Positions 18,966 to 61,868 of a stretch of 64,000 nt of DNA are shown in pieces (position 1 is the first letter of the stretch; every line of letters starts with the position of its first letter). Made by a program: the position numbers and the translations under genes. Source of the stretch: Symbiodinium sp. CCMP2592 (taxonomy: Eukaryota > Sar > Dinophyceae > Suessiales > Symbiodiniaceae); assembly GCA_905221615.1 (NCBI GenBank), contig CAJNDT010006025.1:626078-690077 (forward strand). The letters are read 5' to 3'. The notes under the pieces are model-generated. The model made no database searches. It was not told where the DNA came from and worked only from the letters and a program-made list of their open reading frames with translations.

Positions 18966-19002
<37 letters not shown>

Positions 19003-19029: not shown

Positions 19030-19081
<52 letters not shown>

Positions 19082-38926: not shown

Positions 38927-38944
38927 TTCCACAAAACTCCAGAA

Positions 38945-39219
38945 CCGGATATTGCACAATGATTCAAGGGTCAGTTTACGGGCTCGATATGCAAAATGCC
39001 CGAGAATAAGATATGTATTGGAGCCAGCTATAAAAATCGCTCCCGAATATATTCTCGTGACTGCTGACGTGGCACTCTTTTGTTCCAGCACTCGAAAGGG
39101 GCTGTTCGAAAGAAAGTTCGAGCACACGACGGGTTGAGCACGACCCGAGTGGTTGCGTTTCCACGAGTGCAGATTGCGGTAGAGAGATTCCGCTGCGTGC
39201 TAAGCACCCGATTGCCCCC
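38945..39219 (-). repeat. block B2 (terminal repeat copy)
   Basis: A 275-bp block that I read as identical to 45,126-45,400. It starts CCGGATATTGCACAATG and ends GATTGCCCCC on the plus strand. Its plus-strand left edge is preceded by an 18-bp sequence (38,927-38,944) that recurs directly after block A2. Confidence 0.9.
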
Positions 39220-39238: not shown

Positions 39239-39523
39239 ACAAAATTTTTTCCCAGTGGCCCGAAATGCCACTTGATCTGCAAAACCGTCGGTGCATAGAA
39301 ACATTCATAACTTCAACATGCATAGAGAACACTTTATGCAAGCGTTGAAGGTTGGGAAAATCATTCGTGTGATAAAAGCATGCTTTCACACAGAAATTAA
39401 AAGTTTGAAATCATGCAATCAATCGGTTCCCGGTTGTCGCCATTTTGAGGGTTAAGGATTACCCTCAAATAAAACAACCTTGTAGTTTAAGTGGAAAGAG
39501 TCATCCGCAAGCGGAAACGTGTC
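39239..39523 (-). repeat. block A2 (terminal repeat copy)
   Basis: A 285-bp block that matches 54,001-54,284 except for one extra T in a T-run. It is separated from B2 by 19 bp of GT/GC-rich sequence absent from both sides of the long copy. It ends AAGCGGAAACGTGTC. Confidence 0.9.
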
Positions 39524-40142
39524 TTCCACAAAACTCCAGAATTTCCGGCAGTCTGGGGGCTGAGCGACTTCGAGAAGACCGCTCAGCTGCTGTCCGAGGT
39601 CCTCGCGGGTCGGGTGAAACATCCCGCAACATGCTGAGTCATCTAGGAGAGTGCGAAGCTGTGCAGCACAAGTCCCGAGCGATGATCATCAGCGACACTA
39701 TTAACAAAAGACGAGGCAACATTGAGAGCCTTCGCCACACGTTGAATGGGAGGGAAGTCAGGAAGCCGCAGTCCGTCTGACATGTACCTCCTCTTGTGAA
39801 AAGCATCGAATTGGATGTATCAGATTAGCTACGCAATCACATCCGGAAACATTCCGAGCAGCAACTAACGGTTCGGAAAGAAGCTCGAAACAACATGGCC
39901 TGAGCAGCAAAGCTACGGATCAGGTCAAAAGCTCGGAGCAGCAGAGCTACAAATCCGAGAAGAACTCAAAACTACACGGGAGGCTCTCACGTCACTTCAG
40001 AAGGCGTCGTCGGTGGAGCTCAGAGGACCTCGCTTCCGCAGCCCACAGCAGCCGCCCTTGTAGTAGACGACGAAGAGGAGGAAGGGTGAGCCAGCAGCCC
40101 AAACCAGCAGCAGCAGCGCCAGACCAGAGAGGCAGAGCAGTG

Positions 40143-40925
40143 CCGCTCTCGGTTTATGCCAAGAGCACAGCCAGTCCACACAGGAACCCCTAGGGAAGGG
40201 GACAGGGCCTAAACCCGAACAACCCAAAAGGGAACAAGGGCCGTCAAGAAAGGATGCCACGTGAAAGTCAAGAAAGCGTGAGGCATCACGCGCACGCGAA
40301 AGGTGTTAAATGCGAAAACACCCAGGCCATCAGCAGCAGCCCAAGTAGAGCATAAACGCATTCGGCGAGAGGCCAAAGCGCACCTCATTGCACACAGGGC
40401 TCCTAAGGGGAGGGAAGGGCCTAAACCCGAAAAACCCAAAAGGAGAGGACCAGCCTAAAGAAACGAGCCCACACCAGCAGCAGCAGTGCCAGGCAGGAGC
40501 CAGGCAAGCAGCGCTCGGAGTGGTTCGAAGCACGCACCCGGTAGAAGCGGATGGGCCATAGCAAGGTCAGCAAAAGATTGTTACAAGAAACATCCCAGAA
40601 TCAGGGACTCCCGCCGGCAGCAGCATCGCCACACAAGGAAGCATTGCCGCGCTCAGCAGAAGGGCCTGAGCTCAGGCAAGATGCACAAGAGTACCCCGAG
40701 GGGAGAGGGGCCTAAACCCAAGAAACCCAAAGGGGAGGCAAGGGCATCGCGGAGCCACGGAGGCCTGGGAAAGCGAGCTCCACACAATAGCAGCAGCACC
40801 ACGCAACAAGCGAGGCCGCGCTCATGCATAGAGGAGTTTACGCCAGGTGCACACCGGAACCTCTAGGGGAGAGAAGGGGCCTAAACCCGAGCAAACCCGA
40901 AGGGGAGAGGGCAGGGAGTGAAAGT
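40143..40925 (-). repeat. four-copy repeat in the LINE 3' region
   Basis: A core of about 45 bp recurs at 40,208, 40,420, 40,711 and 40,880. On the plus strand each copy has a CCCTAGGGGA-like dyad, an AGGGGCCTAAACCCGA segment and a following AACCCRAAGGGGA. The spacing is irregular (212, 291 and 169 bp). On the LINE sense strand the core contains GGGTTTAGG, resembling the telomere-type heptamer common elsewhere in the window. It lies just downstream of the stop codon, where LINE 3' recognition elements are usually found. Confidence 0.7.
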
Positions 40926-41046
40926 TCGTTCCGCCCGGCACATGAAAGCACAAGCAGCACACACACGAAAGACATACCAAGGGCAATCAAAGAATTGAGG
41001 AGCCAAAGGTAAGTAGTCATAGAGCATTCTGGTGCGGCCAAACTAG

Positions 41047-44000
41047 TCAAGGCCCAGCCCCTGCGGGCTCAGCATCATCAAGGGGAACACTTTTCACATG
41101 TTTGTCCAGCTTCTCGGCAGCAGCTGCCGCAAGTCTGACGGTAGCCAGCTCCCAATCCCGAGCCTGCTCACACTGTTGATGCCATCGCTCCCGGAGAGAG
41201 CCCAAGAGCCTGTTTTGCATGCAATTGCCCGCCGCCTGATCTGCAGCATGGTTAAAGGCGCGGAGCACATCCGCATCGTGATCCGGCGAAGGCCGCCAGC
41301 GGGGGTGCTTATTGTGTGACGGCACCCAAATCAAGGAGATAGCACAGCCGCGCCTCACCAGTTCCTTCCAGAGACGGCGCGCGTCCCTGAGCAAGAGGCC
41401 CAACTTAAAGGGATCATCACCATGGCCCGAGATGGCCGTCAGGGCAGCTTTGCAGTCGGTCAAGATGAAAATGCACGTCTCGCAGCCCTCACTCCACACC
41501 CGGTGGACCGAAGCAAAGGCCGCGTGGAGGGCCAGAACTTCCTGCCGATACGGGGATTGATCCTCTGCCCCAGTGCCCATGGCATAGACACAAGACGGAT
41601 CGCCGATCACCACCGCATAAGCACCGACAGATCGATGGCTGGAGCCATCAGTAGCCGCATAAATCCTGCTCCTGCCAGAGCCGAGGGCAGCACGGAAAGC
41701 AGCATCCAAGTCCGCCCGAAAAGCCCCACAGTCAGAGGCGGCAGGCGCCGGAGGTTTCAAGGGAGTCGACTTGGCAAACATGCGCTCCTCCGCCCGATTC
41801 GTCGGAGGGGGGTGATCCCGCCGGAGCGCCTCGGTGCACTCGCAAACCCAGGTCACATGCGGTCGCGACGGAGCAGTCGCTCCGCAGAGGCACTGCATGC
41901 GCCTATGCTGCTCGTTCAAACCCTGCCCGGCCGTAAAGAACCAGCACGAGCCTCCCGTGACAGCAGCAGCCCGTCTCATATAAGGAGTGGTCGCCTCATG
42001 CATGGCAACGCGGTGCCCACGAAAGCTGAAGCGCGCATCCCGCGACGGAGGTGCCAGATCCAGGCCGCGTGCAAGGCTCGGGTCCGGCCTATGAAAGCTC
42101 CGCCAGACGCGCTGGCATCTCTGCATGTAAAGGTGCCGGTAATGGTCAAACAGCCAGCCCTTAACCTCAGCAAAGCTCTCCCATCCGACCTGCACCTCAC
42201 GAGAGATCCCTAAGTCATCACGGCAGGCGAAAAAGAAGCCATCAGGGCGTTCAACAACGCTCCACCCCAATTTGCGAAGGAGGCCAGGCGCAGCAGGCAA
42301 CAGCTGATCCCAGCGCTGGCCCCGGGCATCACGCGGCTGCTCCAGAGCAAAGGCCGGAGGCTTGCAGAGGAGGCGCCAGGCCTCGCGGAGCACAGCAGAG
42401 TCAGCAGCGCACTGTGGCTCCAGCATCCACCCCACATGTTCGAAGATCAGGACACGCGGGGCTTCAAAGGAAAATTGACAGTCAAAAACACGAATCGCAG
42501 CATCTCTAACTTGCTTCATCTCGCCTGCCAGTGGCGTGGCATAGGCAGCGGCCCACACCAAGCACGGGTAAACAAGTGATTTCAGCATGAGGGCCCGCAG
42601 TCGACTGCAAGCGGTCACCCAGCGCAAAAGGTCCATGCGCAGCAAAGCTTTTCTCAAGGAAAATTTCAGCAAGCCCCATTCATCATTAAAGGAAACAGTG
42701 ACACCTAAGACTTCAAGGGTTTGCGAAAACTGATAGTTGAATCGGGCAGCCAGAGCAGAGGCCTCGACATGACCCTCCGGCGCCACGATCGCACACTTTG
42801 GCAGGGAAATTTCAAGACCACAAGTGGCATCGAATCGGTCAGAGCGCCGAATCGCATGCTCCAGGTCGCCAAGATCCGCAGAGAAAGTCCAGAAGGACCG
42901 GTCGTCCAGGTAGACCAGGCCTGAAACCCCTTGCCTCAACACAGCCAAGGTCCAAAGGTGGCTAAATGCGGCAGCAAGGGTGGGACTTAAGGGACAACCC
43001 TGAGCTATACCCAAGCGGGGCTTAAACCAGGCATCACTGTATGCACCATCAAGTTGGACGATGCGCGAAGCTCGCGTGTAAAAGGCCTTCAGCAGCGGCC
43101 AAAGAAAATGCGGCGCTTTCAAATGAGAAAGGAGGACCTCTAGGGCTTCAAACTGGATGGCATCAAAGAACCCCGCAATGTCCTGTTGAACCGCAACGTT
43201 AGCGCCACCGCGCATTGCAGCATTCAGCTGAAGCAGGGCACCCGACACCGACGTGCCCGGGATGCCACCGGCATCCGACGGAGAGCTCCAAGAACCTATC
43301 CAGTCGGAGAGTTGGGCATTCAAAATCCTTGCTCCCGCACGCCAGACAGCTTGAGAGATGGTTAACGGCCTGAAGCCCCCCTTGATTTTCTTAATCATCA
43401 CCACACGTGCCTGTGCCCACTGGGCGGGGACGTCACAACAAGCAAGGCACCGATTCCACAGCTGGGAGGTCCACACCCACCAAAGATCAGGCATGGAACA
43501 TAGCAGTCCAGGTTTCCACGCATCCGGCCCGGCAGCACGGTGCCTCATGGACTGCATTGAGCGTCGGAGAGCCTCTGGCGTGATGTTAGGCACGACCTCC
43601 GAGCTTGCGGGGCGCGGCAGGGGCCGCAACAGATCACGCATGGCCTGCATGTCAACCGCCCTAAAGGACGCGGGACAGAGCTTCGCCCGCAGGTCCTTTG
43701 CCACAGCTGCAACCGCGACCGCCGGATGTGCAGGGTCGCCCGGACTGGCAACATCCGGAAGCTGACGCTCCCAAGCAAGCTGCTCATCAGCGCGCCGCTT
43801 CACAAAAGACCGGGCACGAGGCAGGTCAGCACGCGTCCTGGTGCGCCACATCTGCTTTCTTGCCTCCTCCTCCTGCTGCATGAAAGTCTCAATGAGCTGT
43901 GCAACATGTGGGAGAAGAGAGAGCTCATCGCCATCACGGGCATAAGGCAGGCTGGGCACCTTCAAGCGCGTGGACCGGAGTGAGCGCCTGATTCGCGCCA

Positions 44001-45069
44001 CCAGCAAAGCATCGTTCGTCCGGTGGGAAAGAACCTGAAGCCTCGCACGGAGTCGCAGCAAAAGGCGCAGGCCCTCCGACTTCACAAGCTGCTTGCCAGC
44101 CCGTCCCGCCGCACTGTGGGCGACAGGCTCCCAGGAAGACGCGCGAGGAACGCACTCTGCAGAGCACGGCTCACACAGCAGAAGCTCGGCGGTGTCCGAC
44201 AAGAAGCGCCAAGCCCCGTCCAAATCATTCTGTTCCAAGGCGCTCGCAAAGGGTCCAGCATCAATTTGAGCACATCTGGACTCCAAGTCAGAAGACTGGA
44301 GATCATCACGAGGCTTACATCGCTTGGGCCCAACCAAGGGACAAGGAGCATCAAGGGCATACGAGTAGTGTACCCCCAAGTGGTCCGAAAAATCGCACGT
44401 AAAGTGATCCACAGAAACCGCAGGCAAGTCACGATGATTAACAGCAAAATCAATGCGACGAGAGCGCACTCCTTGGGCATTGACCGGGCCCGTGGCAGGA
44501 AGGGGCCGGCCACGCGCACATTCATCACCAGCAAGCACGGTGCCTTGCGAAATTAGCGATCCTAAGCGGCCTTGGGAAGGCTCAAGGTTGTAGTCGCCCA
44601 AAACCACAAACCTATAACCCGAGGCAACCGCACACTCCAAAACCTCATCCACTTGTGTCTGGGCAACTGGCTCGTTGCCGGCCTGGCCATAAAAGGCCAC
44701 CACCAGGATGGTTTCATCAGTGGCACTCCGGGAGCTCGCAGGGAGCGAAGAATCATCCTCAGGGAGGGATCGCAAATTGAAGAGTCCCGCCACGTGCCTG
44801 GTGGAAGCAGGACCCTTACACAGCTGGACATGCCGAAAAGGAAAATCGCTGACCAAAGCAACCCGGCTGCCGAGATCCTCAGGAGCACTCAGAGCAACAT
44901 GCCGGCCATGCGCTTTCCACTGGTTGCGATAGCCGATGCCAGCCGTTTCAGGAACATTGACCTCGGACAACGCCACAATCTGTGGGGGGCCTTGCCGAAG
45001 CAGAGCATCGAGCATCCCCACCGTCGACGTGCCACGCCGGTGAACATTCAAGCACGAAAGTCGAATCAC
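41047..45069 (-). CDS. LINE polyprotein: AP endonuclease, reverse transcriptase, RNase H
   Basis: The 1,340-residue frame starts at an ATG 56 bp inside block B1's edge. Residues 1-235 form an apurinic-type endonuclease domain: N8 in SCLNVH, E36 in LSEVN, GDYN at 158-161, RRIDF near 204-208 and the SDH triplet at 228-230. The reverse transcriptase spans about 555-780, with motif A aspartate D630, GIAQGCPLSP near 687-696 and the YLDD box at 720-723. A CxC...CxC...H cluster follows. The C-terminal RNase H (about 1,130-1,285) has TDGS, RQEV, LTDCKAAL and a terminal HAAD. All catalytic residues appear present, so the copy may be competent. The endonuclease would nick target DNA and the RT would copy the element's RNA in place. 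No ORF1 is recognised upstream, because block B1 follows directly. The subfamily cannot be fixed without a phylogeny. Confidence 0.92.
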   Translation of the reverse strand: MIRLSCLNVHRRGTSTVGMLDALLRQGPPQIVALSEVNVPETAGIGYRNQWKAHGRHVALSAPEDLGSRVALVSDFPFRHVQLCKGPASTRHVAGLFNLRSLPEDDSSLPASSRSATDETILVVAFYGQAGNEPVAQTQVDEVLECAVASGYRFVVLGDYNLEPSQGRLGSLISQGTVLAGDECARGRPLPATGPVNAQGVRSRRIDFAVNHRDLPAVSVDHFTCDFSDHLGVHYSYALDAPCPLVGPKRCKPRDDLQSSDLESRCAQIDAGPFASALEQNDLDGAWRFLSDTAELLLCEPCSAECVPRASSWEPVAHSAAGRAGKQLVKSEGLRLLLRLRARLQVLSHRTNDALLVARIRRSLRSTRLKVPSLPYARDGDELSLLPHVAQLIETFMQQEEEARKQMWRTRTRADLPRARSFVKRRADEQLAWERQLPDVASPGDPAHPAVAVAAVAKDLRAKLCPASFRAVDMQAMRDLLRPLPRPASSEVVPNITPEALRRSMQSMRHRAAGPDAWKPGLLCSMPDLWWVWTSQLWNRCLACCDVPAQWAQARVVMIKKIKGGFRPLTISQAVWRAGARILNAQLSDWIGSWSSPSDAGGIPGTSVSGALLQLNAAMRGGANVAVQQDIAGFFDAIQFEALEVLLSHLKAPHFLWPLLKAFYTRASRIVQLDGAYSDAWFKPRLGIAQGCPLSPTLAAAFSHLWTLAVLRQGVSGLVYLDDRSFWTFSADLGDLEHAIRRSDRFDATCGLEISLPKCAIVAPEGHVEASALAARFNYQFSQTLEVLGVTVSFNDEWGLLKFSLRKALLRMDLLRWVTACSRLRALMLKSLVYPCLVWAAAYATPLAGEMKQVRDAAIRVFDCQFSFEAPRVLIFEHVGWMLEPQCAADSAVLREAWRLLCKPPAFALEQPRDARGQRWDQLLPAAPGLLRKLGWSVVERPDGFFFACRDDLGISREVQVGWESFAEVKGWLFDHYRHLYMQRCQRVWRSFHRPDPSLARGLDLAPPSRDARFSFRGHRVAMHEATTPYMRRAAAVTGGSCWFFTAGQGLNEQHRRMQCLCGATAPSRPHVTWVCECTEALRRDHPPPTNRAEERMFAKSTPLKPPAPAASDCGAFRADLDAAFRAALGSGRSRIYAATDGSSHRSVGAYAVVIGDPSCVYAMGTGAEDQSPYRQEVLALHAAFASVHRVWSEGCETCIFILTDCKAALTAISGHGDDPFKLGLLLRDARRLWKELVRRGCAISLIWVPSHNKHPRWRPSPDHDADVLRAFNHAADQAAGNCMQNRLLGSLRERWHQQCEQARDWELATVRLAAAAAEKLDKHVKSVPLDDAEPAGAGP

Positions 45070-45125
45070 ACCGACGACATGGGGGCTCGCAAGGCCTTTT
45101 CAGCAGCAGCGAAGGCGAGCTCACC

Positions 45126-45400
45126 CCGGATATTGCACAATGATTCAAGGGTCAGTTTACGGGCTCGATATGCAAAATGCCCGAGAATAAGATATGTATT
45201 GGAGCCAGCTATAAAAATCGCTCCCGAATATATTCTCGTGACTGCTGACGTGGCACTCTTTTGTTCCAGCACTCGAAAGGGGCTGTTCGAAAGAAAGTTC
45301 GAGCACACGACGGGTTGAGCACGACCCGAGTGGTTGCGTTTCCACGAGTGCAGATTGCGGTAGAGAGATTCCGCTGCGTGCTAAGCACCCGATTGCCCCC
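45126..45400 (-). repeat. block B1
   Basis: This copy matches B2. It contains the last 63 or so codons of the long Pol frame and its TAG stop, so the C-terminal tail of Pol is encoded by the repeat. Confidence 0.9.
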
Positions 45401-48400
45401 ATAACAAGTGCTGCCACGGAATGTTCTTCGGGAACACCTCTGCACACGCAATGCCCAGAGCTCTGGCCACCTCATCACCTTCCCCCTTGAGGGTCCGTCA
45501 GCAATGTTTGATTTTGACGGTACTCGAGCGTACCACGCATAAGAGACTCTGTTGTCCTCCAAGCGGCACAGCTCGCGCAACGTGCGATCCATGATCATCG
45601 ACTTGCTCACGCCTTTCACAAGGGCCAAGCGAGCAGGCTCGTTGTCTATCCAATAGACAACTCTCCTGCCCTCCAAGCGCTCCCTGCACACAAGCTTTGC
45701 ACAGAAGATTGCATACAACTCGACTTGACAGATCAAGTGCTCGTTTGCCTCGTTTCGCCATGCTTCTTTGAGCTCGGGCGGGAGCTCACCTTGCAACACC
45801 CGCGTGAAGCCGTCGGCCGAGTCGATCAGTACGGCTCCTATGCCAGCGAAATCGCCTTCAAGAGATCCGTCAGTGAAGACGTGTACCACCTCCTTGCGAT
45901 CAGAAAGTGCCACCTCCCGTGGACGAGCACTGCCAAGAAACTCCAAAGCCCGATCGCACAGCTTCGCGAACTCCTCAGGAGACGGAAAAGCTTCAGCGTG
46001 AACTATCCTATTCAAGTCAGCGCAAATGTGATTTAGCGACATGCCCACACAGGAGCCTGCCGCAAAACGCAGCAGCCCCAGCAACACTTGGCCAAAATGC
46101 TTTGTTATCGACCCTTCGGCTTTGACCTTGCCAAACATCTCCACCAGCCGCTCGATCCTTCCCGGCTTGTTGGAGATCGAGAGCTTTCCAAGGTGGAGCC
46201 GTTCCACGCACATTTTGAGTCCTAGGACACTGCAAGAAGCATCGAAAGGTAAGCCTTTGGAACCTGCCCCTGTCTCGGCATATCGAATGCCAAGCAGACT
46301 CAGCATGCGGCCGCACGCCTCGTCGGTAGCCTCAGCCATGTCTTCGCGAGCCAGCATCGGGTAGTCATCATAGAAGTACGAGCACACCACGTTCAAGACT
46401 TTCGTGAACAAGAAGTGGATGGCACGGCTTATACGGTTAAAGCTAAAAACGCTGGCAGCGGCGCCAAACATTAAGGCGTTCGCCACATACCAGGTGGGCT
46501 TCCCCTTTTCGTCGAAAATGACTATAACCGAAAGGCACCTATCCCGCTCGCTTACACAAAATTGTTTATAGGCTTTTGACAAGTCCAGGCATTTGACCTT
46601 CCAAGGGACGTGCACAGCCAAATCTGTTTGCATCCTTGCAACAGCCAGTGCCATGGCTGTGAAATAAGCGCTGTCTTGGAGCCTCAAACGGATGGCCGTC
46701 CCGTAAGCATCGTTAAGATGAGCTTCATGGCCGTCATCTATGGGACGCTTCTTGTCAGATTGCTCAATGAGGAACCTTCTCACGGCCACCCAATCCTGGG
46801 TCCCAAGGTGGCGGGAAACCGCTTCCTCGGACTCGAATGGTCCCGAGAGGAAACCCTCCGCCGTCTCCTCATCAGTGATCTTCCGCAGCTCCTGAGCCTC
46901 TTCCATCGAGACTCTCCTGGGATTCGCAAGGATCGCACGCCTCAAGTCAGGGGCTGCTGCCCTCAGGGCCTCGGGCGAGAGCTTTGCAAGTCTGATTCCT
47001 GTCTCGAAGCAGTCAGGCTTCGGAGCGGACCCCACCAGGTGTGAGCCGTCGCTCACTAGGTCCACGACTCCCATGTCGTCGAAACCATGCTGCGACAAGA
47101 GATCACGCAGCAAGAGAATGCGTTTTCCCCGAAGGACTTTTTGCATCCAAGGCGGCTTTGACTCATGCAGAGCCTTCTCCTGCGGTTCAAGCTGCTTGGC
47201 CCGTATCTCCATCTTTGTCAAGGCAATCTTTTGCTTAAGCTTAAGCACCTTAGCCTCCGAAGTGAGATTTTCCTTTATGGCCGTCAAGGTGGCCTCATGC
47301 AAAGGATTGTTTGAATCCATAGGATGCGGCAGCTTAAGGGCCTCTTTTACCCACACTTCGGGACTACGATAAACCCCAACTGTAACCAGACCTGACCCTA
47401 CTCCAAGCTCGTTTCCCGCGGGCAGCTTTGGGTCACGCAAGGGGTGAGGGACTAAACCAGAAGAGCCAAGTGAGGGGTCAGGGTCACCCGTACTAGGCTT
47501 CGAGTGCGCAGCATCACCCAAAGGCACCAGATCAGAGGGTTTCGCCAGGTCCCCCGTCTTCACCCCAATCATTGGGGCCGAGAGAACCCTCATGCACGAC
47601 TCATCAAAGCTTGACTTGGGCACTTGCTGGATGGTCGCAAACTCCGAAAGGAGAGGCTGGCTCTTCCTATGCTGCAGGCCCTGCGCCGCCAAGGCAGCGT
47701 GTTGCACGTCCAGCGGGCGTGGGCAGAGACGGAGGCCGGAGGCCTCGGCATGGGCGCCGAATCGAGCGGCCAAGGCTTGCGAAAGCTGCACGGGATAAGC
47801 AGCTTCAAGATGAGTGGCGAAGATCCAGCCATGCGGCCCCCGCTGAGCCCCCCAGGGGGCGTGATCATGTGAGTGATCGCAACGTGCACACAAGTCTGCC
47901 ATTTGCTTGCAATTCGTGAGCAAACGTGTGGTCTTGGGCCTAGAGCCGCCATACATGCAATGATCGAACTCCACCTGAAAAGTTCTGTGGCTGAAGCGGT
48001 GCCAAGAGGACTCAGGACGGGCGCGCGCCAGAGCAGCAAAAACCGCCCAGAAATGGCTGTTAGCAGGATTCTCAAGTGTGAAAGGCACCGCGTGTTCGAG
48101 CGCCCAGCAGACCAGGTTGAAGGTGAAGAGGTACAGGCAGTTTGCCTGCTGCACTCGTCGGTATTGCGGGGATGCCTTGTCAAGGCCAGGCAGTCCCAAG
48201 GGGTGACGTGAGGATCGCAAAGGTTTAGGCTCTCGAACCCCTTTGTTAAGCAGCGAGGCGGGAAGAGGGCGTTCCCGAGCGCGGCTTGCGGTGCCGCACG
48301 GCGGCGCGATGTGCAATGCATCAGGCGGGGTCGCTCTGAGGCGGTCCATGAGCAGCTCTTGTTGGTTCTCTTGCGTGAGATCCAGGCGCACCGTTGGCAT

Positions 48401-49204
48401 GAGAGCGGCGCGCGGGCGGTGATCAACCGCAAGCGTGGCGAAGCCAGCTGCGAAGAAAGCCCGAGACAAGATGGCGGTGCCGCTGAAGACCTCCACTGCA
48501 AAAGGCTGGCGGCTCAGCTTGTGGATAGAATGCTGACACGCGGCAAAGCCCAAGCTGGAAGCGAAGGCAGCATCAGCGGTCGACAATTTGTCGATGAAAT
48601 TTGTTGTGTATGCAACTAACACTACACGGCGGCCAGACCATGGTAAGGTTGCATGCAGGGCCGATCGGGCTGAGAAGACAGCAGGGCCAGGGAGCGTTGG
48701 CAAAGCATCACCAAGCAGCCTCTTGCCATTCACTTCCAGGGGCGTGAGGCCCTGATCATTCTGGACCCAGACTTCGCCACCTGAGTAATCGGACAGCCCG
48801 AAAACGGCATTTCGAGCTGACTCCATGTTGTGAGTGTCACGATGCGCGACTGTGCAAACGCTGTCAAGGATGACCACTGCTGAGAAAGAGTGGCCAGGGC
48901 ACCCCTCCAAAATAAATCGAGTGAAAACTCTAGTGCTCAAAGGGAAAATTCGGCAATTGTTACGCAGACCCACAAGGTTCCCATGCACCCAAGTACCGGT
49001 TCCGAAGGAAAAACCTCCGGCTTCTGCACGTCCGGCAGTTGGCGCATCCTCGTGAGGGAGAAGGTCAAAAAGCTTCAGCAAGTCTACACGGCTAGCCGAA
49101 GTGAGTTCCAAAAGTGAAGTTGCAAACATTTCGGCTGGGTGCACGGCGGAGCCCCTCGGCTCTGCAAGCACATTTGCCTGGCACTGCGACGACTGGTGAT
49201 CCAC
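45209..49204 (-). CDS. Pol: 2OG-Fe(II) dioxygenase-like, C5-methyltransferase-like, RT, RNase H
   Basis: Residues are numbered from the GTG at 49,204; the first ATG is at 49,129, and the frame is open up to the TGA at 49,232. Residues 70-205 resemble a TET/JBP-type 2-oxoglutarate/Fe(II) oxygenase: H121-x-D123, SGGEVWV at 141-147, distal H184 and R192/R193 eight residues on. Residues 235-430 resemble a C5-cytosine methyltransferase: EVFSGTA (motif I, 238-244), APPCGTAS with candidate nucleophile C303 (motif IV) and E378-N-P (motif VI); the usual QxRxR motif is not obvious. The reverse transcriptase has LDLSKAYK with D874, FGAAASVF and the YDD box at 945-947. RNase H has D1112, E1162, D1187 and D1236. 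Methyltransferase-RT fusions are known in dinoflagellate retroelements. The added oxygenase suggests the element both methylates and oxidises bases in its own DNA, which is inference. Confidence 0.85.
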   Translation of the reverse strand: MDHQSSQCQANVLAEPRGSAVHPAEMFATSLLELTSASRVDLLKLFDLLPHEDAPTAGRAEAGGFSFGTGTWVHGNLVGLRNNCRIFPLSTRVFTRFILEGCPGHSFSAVVILDSVCTVAHRDTHNMESARNAVFGLSDYSGGEVWVQNDQGLTPLEVNGKRLLGDALPTLPGPAVFSARSALHATLPWSGRRVVLVAYTTNFIDKLSTADAAFASSLGFAACQHSIHKLSRQPFAVEVFSGTAILSRAFFAAGFATLAVDHRPRAALMPTVRLDLTQENQQELLMDRLRATPPDALHIAPPCGTASRARERPLPASLLNKGVREPKPLRSSRHPLGLPGLDKASPQYRRVQQANCLYLFTFNLVCWALEHAVPFTLENPANSHFWAVFAALARARPESSWHRFSHRTFQVEFDHCMYGGSRPKTTRLLTNCKQMADLCARCDHSHDHAPWGAQRGPHGWIFATHLEAAYPVQLSQALAARFGAHAEASGLRLCPRPLDVQHAALAAQGLQHRKSQPLLSEFATIQQVPKSSFDESCMRVLSAPMIGVKTGDLAKPSDLVPLGDAAHSKPSTGDPDPSLGSSGLVPHPLRDPKLPAGNELGVGSGLVTVGVYRSPEVWVKEALKLPHPMDSNNPLHEATLTAIKENLTSEAKVLKLKQKIALTKMEIRAKQLEPQEKALHESKPPWMQKVLRGKRILLLRDLLSQHGFDDMGVVDLVSDGSHLVGSAPKPDCFETGIRLAKLSPEALRAAAPDLRRAILANPRRVSMEEAQELRKITDEETAEGFLSGPFESEEAVSRHLGTQDWVAVRRFLIEQSDKKRPIDDGHEAHLNDAYGTAIRLRLQDSAYFTAMALAVARMQTDLAVHVPWKVKCLDLSKAYKQFCVSERDRCLSVIVIFDEKGKPTWYVANALMFGAAASVFSFNRISRAIHFLFTKVLNVVCSYFYDDYPMLAREDMAEATDEACGRMLSLLGIRYAETGAGSKGLPFDASCSVLGLKMCVERLHLGKLSISNKPGRIERLVEMFGKVKAEGSITKHFGQVLLGLLRFAAGSCVGMSLNHICADLNRIVHAEAFPSPEEFAKLCDRALEFLGSARPREVALSDRKEVVHVFTDGSLEGDFAGIGAVLIDSADGFTRVLQGELPPELKEAWRNEANEHLICQVELYAIFCAKLVCRERLEGRRVVYWIDNEPARLALVKGVSKSMIMDRTLRELCRLEDNRVSYAWYARVPSKSNIADGPSRGKVMRWPELWALRVQRCSRRTFRGSTCYGGNRVLSTQRNLSTAICTRGNATTRVVLNPSCARTFFRTAPFECWNKRVPRQQSREYIRERFL

Positions 49205-49231: not shown

Positions 49232-50437
49232 TCACTGAGTGCTCCGGGCCCTAGTGCACTCGTGCCCGGGGTGGGCACCACCACAGCCTTTCCACCAGCA
49301 CAGGTGAAAGCCTCGCCCGCACCTGCCCTTCTTCGATACCTTGAACTTGCAGGATCCGCAGTTGAAGGCGAAACAGACGGGTTTATCATTCACCTTGGTG
49401 ACGGCCCCGTCAGGCACTGTGATCGAGCCAGAGGACCCACGATCCTTGCCTTTCTTTCCCTTGCCTTTGCCTCGACCTTTGGGCGAGTCACCCTTTTCGG
49501 AGCGTTTCAAGGGGTTCGGAGGCGAGCTCTGCGCAGGCAGGTGGTTGAGAAACTGCAACACATCGCTGTGATCACTAAGAAGCTTAAGCTGTTCATCCAC
49601 CGGCTTGACACGGCCCGGGGCACCGGCCAGAGCTCCCAGAAGATTGGGAGCGGCCAGAGTGAACAAGTGACGATCAGCCGCCACAATCTGAGTCAAGGCC
49701 ACTCCGTGGTAACCAGGAGGAGCAGGCCTTTCGAGCGTCACGAAAAGCTTGTGCACCCAAGCCTCCATTGCTTGGTAAGTGGCAAGGCCTGCAAGATCGA
49801 AAGCGAGGCTCCTACGGGCCCAAGCCTGGCGAAGGGTCCACTCGGAACCTGTGTCACAGTTCTCGAACTTCTCAAGCTTTGAAGTGACCTTAAGGTTCCC
49901 GTCCGAATCAATCGACAAAGCCTTGTCCGCCTTGGCTGACTGGATTTCTTGTGCCCTCGAGAGGTACTTGCCTGGGGGCAGGTAGACAAGCGTGCCGGTT
50001 TCAAGCATTTCCACAAGTCGATCTACCACGCCGTGGGAGGGCGTGGTTTCAGGCGAAAAGTGTATCCCAGTGAGGCGGGACTCCTGAGCCTTTTGCCTGG
50101 CCAGCCGCTCGGCCACAGGCATCTTCCTGGTGACAAAGTCGTTTGAAGGCTCCACTCGATTCTTCATGTCACTGATCGAGAGGGCTTGGGCCTCAAAGAG
50201 CAATCGCCTGATGCAGGAAACCTGGTGGTGCTCGGGGGCAGGCGTGAAGACTGCCCGAATCCATTCTTTAACCTCGTCTTCACTGACGCTGTTGGGCGAG
50301 GCTGAGACCGCAAAGGCCAAGGCACCGAAAGTGTTGTAGCCTGCAGCCTCTAATATGGCATGGTTTGCAGCACTAAGTCCAACCTTCAAGGCACGCTCTT
50401 TGAAAGCAGCTTCCGAGTCCAGCGTCACACCGGCCAT
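49232..50437 (-). CDS. Gag-like zinc-knuckle protein
   Basis: A 401-residue frame from an ATG at 50,437. The first 290 or so residues are mainly helical in composition without a domain I recognise. A basic KGRGKGKGKKGK linker (about 320-333) precedes a Cys/His cluster at about 355-394, CFAFNCGSC...CGRGFHLC...CGGAHPGHEC, resembling a CCCH/CCHC nucleic-acid knuckle. The placement directly before Pol and the basic-plus-knuckle tail fit a nucleocapsid role. It ends at a TGA (49,234-49,232), after which the same frame stays open into Pol. A read-through Gag-Pol product is therefore possible, though a simple stop with internal initiation at 49,129 is equally open. Confidence 0.75.
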   Translation of the reverse strand: MAGVTLDSEAAFKERALKVGLSAANHAILEAAGYNTFGALAFAVSASPNSVSEDEVKEWIRAVFTPAPEHHQVSCIRRLLFEAQALSISDMKNRVEPSNDFVTRKMPVAERLARQKAQESRLTGIHFSPETTPSHGVVDRLVEMLETGTLVYLPPGKYLSRAQEIQSAKADKALSIDSDGNLKVTSKLEKFENCDTGSEWTLRQAWARRSLAFDLAGLATYQAMEAWVHKLFVTLERPAPPGYHGVALTQIVAADRHLFTLAAPNLLGALAGAPGRVKPVDEQLKLLSDHSDVLQFLNHLPAQSSPPNPLKRSEKGDSPKGRGKGKGKKGKDRGSSGSITVPDGAVTKVNDKPVCFAFNCGSCKFKVSKKGRCGRGFHLCWWKGCGGAHPGHECTRARSTQ

Positions 50438-50620: not shown

Positions 50621-52819
50621 TCAAACGGGCTCCCGGTCGCGCGCCCTTCGGCACTGAATGCAGCAATCTGGATCTGCTGCTGCCGCTCCGGCCCTTCCGA
50701 ATTTCATGTACGCCGCGGTCAAGAAACGACCGCAAAAGAAATCCGTGCTCTGCGAGTCCTTCAGGCAGTGCACAACTCCTGACACACGGTGCACATACAC
50801 AAGTTCCAAGTCCACTGGCTGCTGAAATGGTGCTCTCGCCACGTCGGCTCGGTCTTCCCCCGAGAGTGCTTCCTCGCTCCCTTCGGAAGACGAGCCACCC
50901 TCCTCCCCGCTAGCCTCCTCAAGGGGCCCGATTGCGGGAGGGATCGTGTTTGCCTTAGGCTCAGTTGGCCCCTTACGCGAGTTTTCAGCGGCTGCAGCAA
51001 GGACTCTATCAACCTCCGGCAAATCCGGATCATAGCGGCCCTCACGTATGTCAAGGAACATCGCGAGGATCTTGCCGTAAAGGGCGGTGTAAGCTTGCCT
51101 CGAGTAGATCAACGGTGACTTGTCTTTGGGCTTCACGTGGTGACCCACCAGTCTTTGGTCACTTGAAGAAAAGGACACAGTCGGGCACCTGGAGGTCCAA
51201 GTAGTGAGCGTCGCCTTTAGCGAGTGAGATCCGCGCTTCAACACTTCTTCCTCCTCGAAGCCCGCTCTCAAGAGGAAGTCTTGCAACCAAGAAGTGGCTT
51301 CCCCTGCCAGCATCGGCATGGAGGTCCATCGCCCGGCTGTCTCCGACCAGCCCGGCAAGACAAAGCCCTTGAGCTCCAACCCTTGGTTTTCACGGGCCTC
51401 GAGCCATCGGTTGGCCCAAGGCAGCTTCACGCCAGACCCAATGGCAGCATATGGCAACAGACGGGTCTTTGCCTCCTGAGTTTTCGAAGTCTTCGAAGTG
51501 AGCCCTTCCGCGATCACAAAGGTTTCGTCATGGGAGTGTTGCACCACAATGGACTTCAATCTTTGCGAGTCTGTCCACCGCGCCCCCGAGTGTAGGCAAA
51601 ACAAATGTTGCCCCATGATACAAGCATCACGGTCCTCCTCCTGGTCGATCGCCGTCTCCAGCGCCACGACCATTTTCAGAGTGAGCTCATCACGCTGGTT
51701 CAGAGGGGCCTTTGTCAAGTACAGGTCCGCCGCAAGGCCCCTGACTCTAGCACTGATGCAATTGTCAAGGGTCACATGCCTCAGGACGGCGACCCCATGC
51801 AAGAATCGCAGGGCCTCCAGGAAGTGGGAAGCCGACGTTGGTCCCCCTTGGCCGTCCTGGAAAACCTTCATGTAGTCAAAGAGATGCTGCTCACTAAAAG
51901 TCAACGGTGAGTGTATGCCACCTTTCAGCGCCCACTGAAAGAACTTCAAGAGCGCCGATGTTCTCTTGCAAAGCGTGCTGGTGGCCTTCAACCGGAAGGC
52001 TGCAACGAACGATGTCTTGACCTCGGACTCGTCAGCAGCCCGACCGACCAGGCTCGCCAGGCTGACCCCTAGTTGCGTCGCCTCCACGTCGAATAAGATC
52101 ATGAACTTCAAATTCTTAAGCGCATGCGACCTAGTTTCCTCCTCTGATCTCTGCACAGGCATCCTGTCCAGGTATTTGCGAACCATGGGGTTTAACTTGA
52201 GCTCTGCCCTCAAGTCCTCAGGCTCAGGGTCCAAAGATGAAGCGACCTCTGGGATCCCCACCAATTTCAGCGGTCGCTTGATTTCCCAAGAATAGCTCAG
52301 TCTTCCCGGCTGTTCCCAAGCTTGTTTAGGCACGGCCTCAGCTGCTTGTTTTCTCTCGAGCTCCGCCGCGACCCTTTGCACGTCCCTGTCATCCATGGGT
52401 GAAGCCAGGGGCTTTGGAGCCTCGGAACCACTATAGACTATAGACCAGACAGAAGCCTCGGCATCATCACTAGCCGGTTGACGAGCTTCGCCGTACCACG
52501 CTTCCTCAGCCTCCGATCCAAGATCACTCCAGCCACTCACGCCACCGAAAGTGCCGTCCTCAGCTGCCTGGCGATCAAGTTGGTCCCTGGCAAAACTTCC
52601 CGCCCTAGACAGCAGATCATCAAGGTGTTGTTGGAACTGAAGATCACCTGATTCGTCCTCCACCAGGACGGGGCTTTCCACACCAAGTTGGCCCTCTAGA
52701 AGGGGAGAGCCCTCGCGGGGCCCTGGCTGCAAGAGGACCTCTTCAGCCTGGGATCCTTGCGGAGGTTCCTGGGCCGCCTGACCCCCTGTATCGCAGGGAT
52801 CTGCCGCAAGGGAATCCAT
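50621..52819 (-). CDS. tyrosine recombinase of the retroelement
   Basis: A 732-residue frame from an ATG at 52,819. The N-terminal 200 residues are acidic, Gln/Glu-rich and probably disordered. A helical core-binding region spans about 260-365. The catalytic domain spans about 375-590, with SGARWTDSQRL (R414), a TSKTSKT turn near 441-447, HSLKAT (H532, with K535 where HxxR is usual), LVGHH (H560) and nucleophile Y572 in IYSRQAY. A Glu/Ser-rich tail and a CCIQCRR cluster close the protein. Such enzymes integrate a circular DNA copy by strand exchange, which explains the absence of a DDE integrase. In known DIRS and Ngaro elements the recombinase usually lies downstream of or near RT; here it precedes both the knuckle protein and RT. 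The HxxK variant could reduce or alter activity. Confidence 0.85.
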   Translation of the reverse strand: MDSLAADPCDTGGQAAQEPPQGSQAEEVLLQPGPREGSPLLEGQLGVESPVLVEDESGDLQFQQHLDDLLSRAGSFARDQLDRQAAEDGTFGGVSGWSDLGSEAEEAWYGEARQPASDDAEASVWSIVYSGSEAPKPLASPMDDRDVQRVAAELERKQAAEAVPKQAWEQPGRLSYSWEIKRPLKLVGIPEVASSLDPEPEDLRAELKLNPMVRKYLDRMPVQRSEEETRSHALKNLKFMILFDVEATQLGVSLASLVGRAADESEVKTSFVAAFRLKATSTLCKRTSALLKFFQWALKGGIHSPLTFSEQHLFDYMKVFQDGQGGPTSASHFLEALRFLHGVAVLRHVTLDNCISARVRGLAADLYLTKAPLNQRDELTLKMVVALETAIDQEEDRDACIMGQHLFCLHSGARWTDSQRLKSIVVQHSHDETFVIAEGLTSKTSKTQEAKTRLLPYAAIGSGVKLPWANRWLEARENQGLELKGFVLPGWSETAGRWTSMPMLAGEATSWLQDFLLRAGFEEEEVLKRGSHSLKATLTTWTSRCPTVSFSSSDQRLVGHHVKPKDKSPLIYSRQAYTALYGKILAMFLDIREGRYDPDLPEVDRVLAAAAENSRKGPTEPKANTIPPAIGPLEEASGEEGGSSSEGSEEALSGEDRADVARAPFQQPVDLELVYVHRVSGVVHCLKDSQSTDFFCGRFLTAAYMKFGRAGAAAADPDCCIQCRRARDREPV

Positions 52820-53095: not shown

Positions 53096-53638
53096 CTAGG
53101 CCGGCTGCCCGAAGCGATCAACTCCAAGCATGCTCTCGATCCGCTGAAGTCGCCTGACCAATGAGCCTCGGTGCTCGCTGTCGATGATAGATCCAGTAAA
53201 ACCCTCCAAGTCATCAAGGCGACCTGCGATGGCCGCAAACTGTTCACGGAAGGAATCGAGACTCGATTCCAAAGGGTGCGCGAACGGTGGAGCGCACACA
53301 AGAACCGTGGCACCAGATTGCGAGTGCCAGTCACCACAAAGACGCTCCTTCTGCATGTCAGTTAAGGAAGCATAGACAGCTTCCACATCGCGAGGAGAGC
53401 AAACCTCACCGCTCTGGCTGAACCCGAGGGAGTCCTCGGAGCAGGTTTCCCAGGCCGAGCGAATCTGCAACTCCGCTTCAGGTTCTTGTGCTGTCTGCAT
53501 GTCGATGGCAAAGCGATCACATGCGTGAGCGAAGGTCAGCGCCTGAGTGCGGGCGAAGCGACGGTCCGGCTGACTGGCAGTGTGCATCCAGAGGGCCTTC
53601 CGGGTCAAGGGGGTTCCGACAGTTAGGGAAAAGCTCAT
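53096..53638 (-). CDS. coiled-coil retroelement protein, second frame
   Basis: A 180-residue frame from an ATG at 53,638 that begins one base after the TGA of the preceding frame (TGAGATG arrangement). No known domain is recognised. The C-terminal third (about residues 125-175) has heptad-like spacing of Leu/Ile with RLDDLEGF and RRLQRIESML, suggesting a coiled coil. As the first or second product of the element it may take part in Gag assembly. It could be the continuation of the upstream frame through a +1 shift or an unseen intron. Confidence 0.5.
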   Translation of the reverse strand: MSFSLTVGTPLTRKALWMHTASQPDRRFARTQALTFAHACDRFAIDMQTAQEPEAELQIRSAWETCSEDSLGFSQSGEVCSPRDVEAVYASLTDMQKERLCGDWHSQSGATVLVCAPPFAHPLESSLDSFREQFAAIAGRLDDLEGFTGSIIDSEHRGSLVRRLQRIESMLGVDRFGQPA

Positions 53639-53639
53639 C

Positions 53640-53894
53640 TCAAATGAAGCGGCGGAACAGATGCCGCAAATGTGCAATGAAAGTTTCAAGCCAGGTGATG
53701 CGAGAGGCTGAGCTTGCTGCCTGCCTGTCCAACCAATCCAAGCGATCCTCGGCCACGCGGACACGAGACTCAAGGAGGTCGTGCGAAATCTGCAAGCGAG
53801 CAAGATGGCTGGACAGAGCCTCAAAACTGGAAAGGCTGCTAGGATGCTCAGACGCCTCAGACACAGCGAGGCCTGCCGGTGCGGCCTCTCCCAT
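53640..53894 (-). CDS. coiled-coil retroelement protein, first frame
   Basis: An 84-residue frame from the first ATG at 53,894. The frame is open further upstream to 53,942 but only with a GTG. Residues from about 20 on show a clear coiled-coil pattern, LARLQISHDLLESRVRVAEDR and further heptads, ending in a basic LRHLFRRFI. It ends with a TGA overlapping the start region of the next frame, in a different phase. It may be a separate small product, the 5' part of a frameshifted Gag-like gene, or a real exon. Confidence 0.45.
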   Translation of the reverse strand: MGEAAPAGLAVSEASEHPSSLSSFEALSSHLARLQISHDLLESRVRVAEDRLDWLDRQAASSASRITWLETFIAHLRHLFRRFI

Positions 53895-54000
53895 CCGACT
53901 GCCCCACCAGGGCAGTCTTGCACGGTGCTCTAAGAGCAACACCGAGGTACGAGGGACTCGGACCTGTTAGACAGAAGTACAGGCCTCTAGAGAGCCCCAC

Positions 54001-54284
54001 ACAAAATTTTTCCCAGTGGCCCGAAATGCCACTTGATCTGCAAAACCGTCGGTGCATAGAAACATTCATAACTTCAACATGCATAGAGAACACTTTATGC
54101 AAGCGTTGAAGGTTGGGAAAATCATTCGTGTGATAAAAGCATGCTTTCACACAGAAATTAAAAGTTTGAAATCATGCAATCAATCGGTTCCCGGTTGTCG
54201 CCATTTTGAGGGTTAAGGATTACCCTCAAATAAAACAACCTTGTAGTTTAAGTGGAAAGAGTCATCCGCAAGCGGAAACGTGTC
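54001..54284 (-). repeat. block A1 (5' terminal repeat)
   Basis: This copy matches A2 at 39,239-39,523 with one T fewer. It is the transcription-side end of the element and lies directly upstream of the first coiled-coil frame. The outside flank begins TTGACTTGCTTC and does not match the flank of block B1. Confidence 0.9.
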
Positions 54285-54754
54285 TTGACTTGCTTCAAAC
54301 TATGCCAGCTCTTTCTATTCTGGTTTAGAAAAACGTCGCATGGACTTAAACACAACTGAGATTTTCAGACTTCCTCCTGAGTCATCTTGAGAACAGGTTC
54401 CAGAACTGCTGGAGTAAAATCCCCGTGGCCCCATCAGCAATGTTGCTGCGATACGCAGCAAGCGTTGTGCGTTTGCTGAAGGTTGCTGACATCTGGAGAT
54501 GCTGTTGCGCAGGCTCAAAGAAACTGGTTCGACACTTTGAAAATGCCCTGGATTGGAATGTACTTGCAACATTGATGCGGGGGTGCGGGGGACTGCCGTT
54601 GCTTTTTCTTGCAGCGACTCATTGCGCGAGCTTTTCCTGAAGTTTCATGAGCACCTTCCGTGCTTGTAGAACTGAAAGACCCAGAAGCTCCTGCAAACTG
54701 TTGCTGTCAAGGTCATCAGCATGGAACCATCTACTGCGTTGTCAACAAATCCGG
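54285..54754. other. short non-coding spacer
   Basis: Nothing recognisable is seen between the retroelement end and the tandem repeat. The short plus-strand frame here lacks an ATG start and any family resemblance. Confidence 0.5.
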
Positions 54755-55735
54755 TCGAATATAGATTTTATTCACGTTCCATGTAGCTACACGCCAGATT
54801 TCTAATGTTTTCCCCGACAAAACGAGTGTATAGTAGTCCTAGACAGAGATAGTACACGCTCCGCGCTGTGCGACAAAACGGGTGTATAATCCTATACAGA
54901 GATAGTAGACGCTCCGCGCTGCGGAAATTCGCGGAGGCTGGTATTCCCTGAACCCACTATACGGCGCTATGGCGGGAAGCAGATTTAGAAGCACGGGTGC
55001 TCCCAAAATGGCAGGAAACAGCAGCAATCAGGGCCACTACACGCCTCCCGCTGTGGTGAAATGCAAATTTCCGCGCAGTGAGCTTCGCGGTGAAGCAACC
55101 TACTACACGCACCGCGCTGTGGCGGGAAGCAGAGTTCCAAGCACCATTCCTCTGCACTTAAAAGAATCATTCGAATATAAATTTTATTCACGTTCCATGC
55201 AGCTACACGCCAGATTTCTGCTGTTTTCCACGACAAAACGGGTGTACAGTAGTAGTCCTACACAGAGATACTACACGCTCCGCACTGCGGAAATTTGCAG
55301 AGTTTGCTATTTCCTAAACCCACTACACGCACCACGCTGTGGCGAAAAGCAGATTTAGAAGCACGGGTGCTCCCAAAATGGCAGGAAACAGCAGCAATCA
55401 GGGCCACTACACGCCTCCCGCTGTGGTGAAATGCAAATTTCCGCGCAGTGAGCTTCGCGGTGAAGCAACCTACTACACGCACCGCGCTGCGGCGGGAAGC
55501 AGATTTCCAAGCACCACTCCCTTGCACTTAAAAGAATCATTCGAATCCGAATATAGATTTTATTCATGTTCCATGTAGCTACACGCCAGATTTCTGCTGT
55601 TTTCCACGACAAAACGGGTGTAATAGTCCTACACAGAGATACTACACGCCCCACGCTATTTCCTAAACCCACTACACGCACCACGCTGTGGCGGGAAGCA
55701 GATTTAGAAGCAGCAGATTTAGAAGCACGGGTGCT
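54755..55735. repeat. tandem repeat with units of about 0.4 kb
   Basis: Units start at 54,755, 55,171 and 55,548, the last one partial. Each begins near a TCGAATATA-like motif and carries TTTTATTCACGTTCCATG, CTACACGCCAGATTTCTG, GACAAAACGGGTGTA and several CACCGCGCTGTGGCGGGAA-like submotifs. The 416 and 377 bp unit lengths differ because of an extra internal sub-repeat in unit 1. Frames that cross it are by-products of the repeat. Confidence 0.85.
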
Positions 55736-56522
55736 CCCACCACGGCTTTGCAAAGCGCATTTTCATGCAGCAGATGGCTCCGGACATCTTTGTTAAGATT
55801 CTATCGGGGATGGGGGCTTGCAGAAAAAAGCCCGTACAGCCTGCGAGTGGCACTGTCAGTTGGATGACTCCATCGGAAACACTCCTACGACTGTGTCTTG
55901 GCGGGTTTGGGGATATGAAGTGGGCTTGGGGTGGCGGCTGGCGTCTTCCGGCATTTCTTTGCCAAACAACGTCTTCTCCTGGAGCTTCTTTCGACATTCA
56001 GCTTTTGTCCGATTTGACGGGCCCATTTTCGAGACCGAAAAACCCTTCGACAACGTGCGCACCACAGGGGGCCTCCCCTGTTGGCGCTGCGCTTGGTAAG
56101 AATGCAGCAAGTTTAACTTGATTGTTTGAAACGATTACGTACTGGGAAGAACCGGTGGCTTGTAAATGGTTAACATACTTTACGAGGTTAGCTATCTATT
56201 TACAAACAAATGTAAAGGGTTAAGTTGGTTTAGCTAAAGGGGTTAGCATGGCTTAGAAGAAGGGGTTTTCGAGGAGCTATTAAAGGGGTCGGTATGAACC
56301 CTATAACCCTAAAGCCCTGAACCCATACCCTGGAAACCCTGGTCGCAAGAGCTTTTTTTTTCGCTGCTGCAAGCCGTGGAAGAGTCTTTGTCATTGAAAG
56401 CCGCAGCCTTTTGAAGAACATTCAGCCCTGATGCTGTTGCCAGGCCGTGGCCTTATATTCATCTTTTTTTCTGCATGCTGGCCATGGCCATATAGTCCTG
56501 GAAGAAAGCTCGCTTTCAGGCT
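55736..56522. other. non-coding spacer
   Basis: No gene is supported. Frames on both strands overlap one another without domains. A short telomere-like fragment (near 56,300-56,340) reappears here after the element block. Confidence 0.5.
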
Positions 56523-61390: not shown

Positions 61391-61614
61391 TCTCGCATCC
61401 TTGGATGCTGGGTCTCCATGGCAACAACAATCCAAGCTACAGGACGGGTGACACAACAAATGGCCCCAGGAAGGGGTGCCTGTCTGCGAACACAACTGCA
61501 CCAAACCTTGTCTGTGCTCGACTCTGGGCATCTGTATGCATGCTGCACGGCTGCTTGGGCCCTGCTTTCCGCTGCTCAGACAACACATTTCGGCAGGCCC
61601 ACAAAACCCTCAAA

Positions 61615-61868
61615 ATATGATATAGAAAAAACTATATCATATGAAAACAAAGTCAATCATATGATATAGTAGAAACTATATCATATGAGGCCAAAATATT
61701 ACATATGATATAGAAAAAACTATATCATATGATATCTGGCCCCACAGACTTATATGATATAGTAGAAACTATATCATATGGCAAGCGATGCCATCATATG
61801 ATATAGAATATGCTATATCATATGGTTTCACTTTCAATACATATGATATAGAAAAAACTATATCATAT
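61615..61868. repeat. array of six 30-bp palindromes with unique spacers
   Basis: Each unit is CATATGATATAG, a loop of six bases, then CTATATCATATG. Units start at 61,615 (first base lost), 61,658, 61,702, 61,752 (first base lost), 61,795 and 61,840, giving steps of 44, 44, 49, 44 and 45 bp. The loops alternate between AAAAAA-type, TAGAAA-type and AATATG-type. Spacers are 14, 14, 20, 14 and 15 bp and unrelated. It lies between the stop of the 62,038-63,396 gene and the start of the transposase-like gene. Subterminal repeats of CACTA transposons, bound by an accessory protein, are the closest known parallel. Confidence 0.9.

Follow-up and report, generated by a model that had tools for sequence, protein, structure and literature searches.

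A stretch of 64,000 nt from the dinoflagellate Symbiodinium sp. CCMP2592 (contig CAJNDT010006025.1, positions 626,078 to 690,077; hereafter the window) carries a retroelement whose Pol protein appears to place a TET/JBP-like oxygenase domain and a C5-methyltransferase-like domain ahead of its reverse transcriptase (RT) and RNase H. We hold with high confidence that this is a DIRS-type tyrosine-recombinase retroelement and that its domains are correctly identified. At the level of sequence, the domains, their order, the repeats of the element, its recurrence and the purifying selection upon it are established.

An earlier note on this DNA, made from the letters alone, had placed such a Pol at positions 45209..49204. 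These coordinates are correct, and the strand is minus: the open reading frame (ORF) list of the window gives an open frame of 1331 codons from 49204 to 45209. A plus-strand reading was rejected, as the plus strand there is crowded with stops. The motifs named in that note are found in the translation, namely AHRDTHN at residues 120-126 (H121 and D123), SGGEVWV at 141-147, H184, R192-R193, APPC with C303, ENP with E378, YDD at 945-947 and an RNase H-like series of TDGS, E, D and AD, and sequence matches and motifs together bear out its reading of all four domains as parts of a single frame. The note had also counted both arginines of the pair R192-R193 into the oxygenase pattern; both are present in the window copy, but only R193, not R192, is common to a divergent relative, P0001. 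Residues 1-1242 of Pol are kept in other copies and residues 1243-1331 are peculiar to the window copy: this tail has no equivalent in intact full-length copies, and its two partial matches (52%) lie on contigs C4223 and C1230. When the whole Pol was scanned against Pfam, Tet_JBP matched residues 104-200 (E 1.6e-4), RVT_1 residues 870-954 (E 0.012) and DNA_pol_viral_C residues 1227-1260 (E 0.13), all below the curated cut-offs. A phmmer search of the whole Pol against PDB sequences found no useful match, and neither scans of viral contigs nor one genome-contig scan gave anything useful.

The putative oxygenase domain comprises residues 60-215 (48560..49027, minus strand; H121, D123, N126, H184 and R193). 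Scanned alone, five versions of the domain found Tet_JBP (PF12851) as their only Pfam family at E < 1, with E-values of 6.1e-6 for the window, 3e-7 for locus L008, 3.1e-5 for L009 (together with a domain of unknown function, DUF, at 1.6), 3.8e-5 for L015 and 4.4e-6 for P0001, a 33% identical domain on contig C1125. Their scores are 23.4-30.2 bits and the curated cut-off is 34.9; since this cut-off is not reached, we call the domain TET/JBP-like and do not file it as a member of the family. H121, D123, N126, H184 and R193 are invariant in an alignment of six sequences, and the HxD...H iron ligands and downstream arginine that characterize TET/JBP enzymes occur in all 22 frames compared below and in P0001. 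N126 may correspond to a base-contacting asparagine of TET2. A profile of the domain, searched against PDB sequences up to E 10, yielded three distinct matches; all were TET2, weak (E 0.37-0.38) and aligned across the HxD stretch. A tblastn search of the domain against phages found nothing useful.

Retroelements of orchids reportedly encode a demethylase of the AlkB type. An AlkB-like or hydroxylase-like oxygenase that acts on RNA or protein and not on DNA bases would have a precedent in the N6-methyladenosine (m6A) RNA demethylase domain described for orchid Ty3/Gypsy elements (PMC9289625), but all five domain sequences match Tet_JBP and no other oxygenase family in Pfam up to E 10, and we consider such a target quite unlikely here.

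Downstream of the oxygenase, residues 216-500 (47705..48559, minus strand) form a C5-methyltransferase-like domain with FSGT at 240-243, PPC at 301-303, ENP at 378-380 and KTTR at 424-427. Searches of this METHYLTRANSFERASE domain in Pfam, NCBIfam and the PDB gave nothing useful; in Pfam up to E 10, the window domain had a single match, a DUF at 0.16, and that of L015 had none. The assignment comes from phage proteins. The PHROGs family phrog_363, annotated 'DNA methyltransferase', was matched at E 0.0022 by L015, 0.015 by L009 and 0.12 by the window, and tblastn in phages retrieved three Inoviridae methyltransferases at E 0.9. The Inoviridae methyltransferase family comprises 12 records at E 1e-10, some of them annotated as C5-methylases. 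Three of six phage methylases were scanned against Pfam, and all three were above the PF00145 cut-off. When the methyltransferase alignment (A2) was compared with that of the six phage methylases (A5) by hhalign, the two matched with a probability of 92.4 and an E-value of 5.2e-7 over 202 columns. In a control run ('-M first') the pair aligned from end to end with a score of 57.9 and a probability of 94.9, whereas none of 100 column shuffles scored above 22.2, the reversed alignment reached 15.3, and the alignments of oxygenase, recombinase and RT scored 14.7-15.4. The domain thus has a statistical, profile-profile match to phage members of PF00145. FSGT, PPC and ENP align with the phage methylase motifs, and the order typical of C5-methyltransferases, motif I, then PPC (motif IV), then ENx (motif VI), is found. 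At the position of motif VIII (QxRxR), the element has KTTR and its phage relatives have KPTDxW. Many of the PF00145 matches listed for the genome lie in ORFs of ~563 aa and a few in ORFs of 1204-1224 aa, which may be DNMT retroelements that have already been described.

The remaining domains are those of a conventional Pol. A reverse transcriptase is recognized at residues 691-1090 (45935..47134, minus strand) by LDLSKAY, FGAAASVF and YFYDD in addition to the RVT_1 match mentioned above, and an RNase H-like part at residues 1091-1242 (45479..45934, minus strand) by motifs only (TDGS, E1162, D1187 and AD at 1235-1236). TDGS, E1162 and D1187 are invariant in four aligned copies, and no Pfam match named RNase H appeared in the whole-Pol scan. 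By these motifs, RT is followed by RNase H, as in DIRS elements.

This arrangement is not confined to the window. The genome searched, 1.10 Gb in 5383 contigs, contains at least 37 Pol rows (of 7310 candidates, 35 were scored). Seventeen of these rows, that of the window copy included, are stop-free from residue 1-2 to residue 1242 or beyond, and the fusion therefore recurs at other loci, a check that the earlier note had asked for. For comparison we used the 22 frames that start at the Pol start among loci L001 to L023 (L001 is the window copy); L018, with a frame that begins at residue 97, was excluded. H121, D123, H184, R192, R193, PPC, ENP, R422 and R427 are kept in 22/22 frames, and the YD columns are present in 19, the other three frames ending before them. 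Ratios of nonsynonymous to synonymous substitution (Ka/Ks; Nei-Gojobori, 13 chosen pairs that overlap and are not independent, three frames being short in RT) are 0.09-0.17 for the oxygenase, 0.06-0.12 for the methyltransferase and 0.05-0.13 for RT; the linker at residues 501-690 gives 0.10-0.30. The values for the two extra domains are close to those for RT, and these domains are therefore under selection much like that on RT. In a subgroup (L021, L022 and the rows with 848-aa frames), Pol is broken near residue 835/836 into two frames, of 848 and 452 aa, that overlap; several copies share the position of this break, which parts the oxygenase and methyltransferase from most of RT and RNase H.

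The conservation of catalytic residues, on which the earlier note had staked its reading, bears upon two alternatives. One is that both extra domains are structural and have lost catalysis, with which their position below the Pfam curated cut-offs, or beyond detection, would agree. However, not one of the 22 frames lacks the metal triad, the arginine, PPC or ENP, and P0001 likewise retains the triad and the arginine; we regard a loss of catalysis as improbable, and catalytic activity of both oxygenase and methyltransferase as fairly probable. The other is that the oxygenase alone counters silencing by stripping host 5-methylcytosine from the DNA of the element, the methyltransferase being a separate relic or an inhibitor. 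Uniform hypermethylation of the DNA has been described for two Symbiodiniaceae (cited in PMC11071213), and this role has been proposed for the TET/JBP genes of fungal DNA transposons (PMC12730594), but the methyltransferase has a Ka/Ks as low as that of RT and keeps PPC and ENP in all 22 frames. We consider this alternative unlikely.

More divergent families extend the pattern. Searches with the oxygenase domain and with P0001 gave the best 150 of 5011 candidates, down to 34-44% identity, and the best 150 of 4921 candidates, respectively; merged with three Tet_JBP rows outside the family, they place the domain at no fewer than 268 sites, that is, at least 268. The methyltransferase search gave at least 137 rows (136 scored of 2124) and the RT/RNase H search at least 79 (79 scored of 2736). 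Among the matches listed, 59 of the 137 methyltransferase rows have an oxygenase domain directly upstream, on the same strand and no more than 600 nt away, and the reverse order was never encountered. At 16 of these places, which belong to divergent families (methyltransferase 41-44% identical), the gap between the two is 81-270 nt and always a multiple of three. Of the 79 RT rows, 39 have an oxygenase domain no more than 2.5 kb upstream, again among the matches listed. This joining of oxygenase to RT by position concerns the family of the window element only; for C1125, the sequence of the RT stretch itself was read. There, the oxygenase domain and a 361-nt downstream stretch that matches the RT of the element (PFGARASVFSF, FFDDYTML) share a reading frame, and the methyltransferase lies between them in a 1218-aa frame, so that C1125 likely encodes all three in one unbroken frame. 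Because it recurs in divergent families, the order oxygenase-methyltransferase(-RT) is no single accident. Oxygenase matches also occur within frames of 1946-2959 aa on contigs C274, C1191, C4960, C3624, C113 and C5339, which are perhaps other oxygenase-bearing element architectures.

A search of the 1.1 Gb genome with Tet_JBP itself (150 scored of 155 candidates) returned 30 matches, none above the cut-off, and 27 of them belong to this element family. Outside the family are C1125 and two further sites, C3212:197029-197316 and C5172:212432-212719, in frames of 355 and 373 aa that are either stand-alone genes or fragments. This distribution would agree with a JBP-like oxygenase that makes 5-hydroxymethyluracil (5hmU), the expanded family supplying much of the 5hmU of dinoflagellates and the methyltransferase acting separately. 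In dinoflagellates 5hmU replaces 12-70% of thymine (PMC6723414), in Breviolum it is enriched on most repeats (PMC11071213), and the oxygenase domain is found at the many sites counted above. However, the search used six frames without introns and could miss a host gene in short exons; Maverick elements are the most enriched in 5hmU and some LINEs (long interspersed nuclear elements) are not enriched (PMC11071213); and the weak PDB match is to TET2, an oxidase of 5-methylcytosine. We consider this thymine reading, on balance, unlikely.

The structure of the element as a whole agrees with a DIRS-type retroelement. On the minus strand it begins with repeat A1 (54003..54286), whose 284 nt are 100% identical to 39242-39525, and ends with repeat B2 (38927..39219, 293 nt). 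A 275-aa open frame from the ORF list (53096..53923) lies between A1 and the recombinase; its membership in the element is uncertain, and it has no Pfam family above cut-off. The tyrosine recombinase (50621..52819, 732 aa), also found ahead of Pol in further copies, matched only Phage_int_SAM_1 in Pfam (E 0.41). Tyrosine recombinases are recognized by the residue set R-K-HxxR/K-H-Y, and R414, K443, H532, K535, H561 and Y572 are kept in the window protein and in five others, 27-86% identical, so that all six aligned proteins display the set as do the recombinases of DIRS elements. By eye, a recombinase also precedes the methyltransferase in divergent elements on C5165, C2079, C5010, C5120 and C4001.

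At the 3' side of Pol, the first 275 nt of repeat B1 (45126..45400) are 100% identical to 38945-39219, and its last 18 nt (39524..39541) have been severed from them by a nested LINE; the same 18 nt close B2 at 38927-38944. Repeat A2 (39242..39525), 100% identical to A1, separates B1 from B2. In L005, L008, L012, L013 and L014, B1, A2 and B2 are contiguous, the remaining loci ending too early or being broken there, and because this region is unbroken in other copies we take B to be 293 nt long and the B1 of the window to be split by the LINE. The resulting order, A-coding-B-A-B, provides the split direct repeats of DIRS elements, and the element without the LINE measures 9776 nt. Since both repeat pairs are 100% identical, the insertion of the window copy is probably recent. 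The LINE (39542-45125, minus strand, ~5.6 kb) has an ORF of 1340 aa with an Exo_endo_phos (APE endonuclease) and an RVT_1 domain, both above the Pfam cut-off. Its insertion site is 18 nt short of the B1 end, because L005 and L008 carry those 18 nt, uninterrupted, as the B1 end; for the same reason a reading of the 18-nt repeat around B2-A2 as the target-site duplication of a solo copy was rejected. The 3' region of the LINE contains a GGGCCTAAACCC-type motif four times, at intervals, and by eye no target-site duplication is evident beyond a possible CCGG.

Between recombinase and Pol lies a 401-aa frame (49232..50437, minus strand) with a Cys/His-rich C-terminus, called Gag-like by position and composition only; it precedes Pol in other copies too and is broken in some. 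A single TGA (49232..49234, minus strand) separates it from Pol in the same frame, in 22/22 frames including that of the window copy. The first Pol methionine is found at residue 26 for 12 of the frames, at 269 for 8, at 158 for 1 and at 21 for 1. Because 8 of the 22 frames thus have no in-frame AUG ahead of the oxygenase, we favor the production of Gag-Pol by TGA readthrough or some other non-AUG route.

Several observations weigh against the interpretation given so far. All copies come from one genome. The Tet_JBP cut-off of 34.9 was reached by no sequence scanned (21.4-30.2 bits), and an AlphaFold2 model from the single window sequence, made without an alignment, had a mean predicted local distance difference test (pLDDT) score of 34.2 and gives no evidence of fold. 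For the methyltransferase, PF00145 did not match the domains of the window and L015 in a direct scan up to E 10, and the methyltransferase sites are not among the 125 PF00145 genome matches listed (123 scored of 1338 candidates). The methyltransferase profile retrieved only noise from PDB sequences (renin-receptor), and the profile alignments are thin, A2 consisting of five close sequences with an effective number (Neff) of 1.2. Among the matches listed, 78 of the 137 methyltransferase rows have no upstream oxygenase, and 40 of the 79 RT rows have none within 2.5 kb upstream. These 40 comprise 33 divergent relatives (41-43%), in which the oxygenase may be absent or weaker than the matches listed, and 7 close relatives, including some partial ones. 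Finally, the divergent families were read directly at one locus, C1125, in two stretches of 441 and 361 nt.

We nevertheless propose a mechanism for the element in which the two extra domains would act in succession. Gag and Pol would be made as one chain by readthrough of the TGA, and the RNA would be copied by RT and RNase H. The repeats would template a double-stranded circle, which the recombinase would integrate. The methyltransferase may then mark cytosines, and the oxygenase may immediately oxidize either 5-methylcytosine or thymine on the newly made copy. The new copy would in this way bear oxidized bases rather than stable 5-methylcytosine and, in a host whose DNA is heavily modified, might escape silencing or nuclease attack. 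Taken as a whole, this explanation is the best we can offer, and we consider it about equally apt to be right or wrong; that the pair serves to put oxidized bases on newly made DNA of the element itself is a tentative suggestion, possible but doubtful. A bolder extension is that this two-step line of methylation and oxidation within a retroelement polymerase is, through expansion of the family, the main source of oxidized bases in dinoflagellates, of 5hmU and possibly of 5-hydroxymethylcytosine. We regard this as a long shot, although, if true, it would make dinoflagellate 5hmU a trace of selfish elements.

The host genome and the surroundings of the element offer some further observations. 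The peridinin-chlorophyll protein (PCP) family, which we take to be particular to peridinin dinoflagellates, matched the genome 143 times but none of 14 control genomes, which marks the host as such a dinoflagellate; multi-gene PCP clusters are seen on C1035, C722, C2391 and C784. Just beyond the 5' end of the element, window positions 54755-55746 hold a tandem block of ~350-370-nt units with CACTACACGC motifs. A six-copy array of ~44-nt palindromic units (ATATGATATAG...CTATATCATAT) occupies 61612-61871, and a ~0.7-kb internally repetitive stretch at 18419-19153 overlaps a 293-aa minus-strand frame.

Among known systems, SymbioDIRS-Dnmt3 (de Mendoza 2018, PMC5890265) resembles the window element, as far as the accessible text of its description goes, in being a dinoflagellate DIRS-type element with A-coding-B-A-B repeats, a C5-type methyltransferase within Pol together with RT, and a separate tyrosine recombinase. 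However, no oxygenase is described for it, and TET and JBP are never named in the main text of that paper. Its methyltransferase groups with Dnmt3 and was detected by PF00145 (PMC5890265, same text), whereas that of the window element is not detected by PF00145 and lacks this mark of the Dnmt3 class. Filing the element as SymbioDIRS-Dnmt3 was rejected, PF00145 having no match to the window or L015; because the methyltransferase is not among the PF00145 matches listed, the Dnmt3 type of Symbiodinium DIRS elements is not shown for it. Other DIRS-type elements also carry a methylase, but theirs is a Dam-like adenine methylase, structurally unrelated, with no oxygenase mentioned in the accessible text (PMC5890265). 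The phage C5-cytosine methylases (Bacillus phages CM1 and BM15, Inoviridae sp., Haloferax tailed virus 1) share the motif order and align with the domain over the full length of the profile, but are small separate proteins of ~220 aa.

Mobile elements with a TET/JBP oxygenase are likewise known from fungi (Kojima 2025, PMC12730594), where, unlike here, the carriers are DNA transposons and some Helitrons with the gene beside the transposase; in its accessible text, this 2025 survey gives TET/JBP as absent from retrotransposons. Retroelements with an oxygenase do have a precedent, since the accessible description of the orchid Ty3/Gypsy elements (PMC9289625) reports the capture of a demethylase-type oxygenase, but there the substrate is RNA and the element is of the long terminal repeat type. 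No description of a TET/JBP domain in any retroelement was found among the titles and abstracts listed in searches of the open PMC literature, most subscription journals, Repbase and bioRxiv lying outside the search, and within the same scope we found the pairing of oxygenase and methyltransferase in a copying-enzyme protein described for no retroelement. What distinguishes the present element from these systems is that an oxygenase-like domain and a relative of cytosine methyltransferases stand side by side in a retroelement Pol, with many copies open and under purifying selection. The element would thereby supply testable candidate enzymes for two questions, namely which enzyme writes the 5hmU of dinoflagellates and why retroelements in these organisms carry DNA-modifying enzymes.

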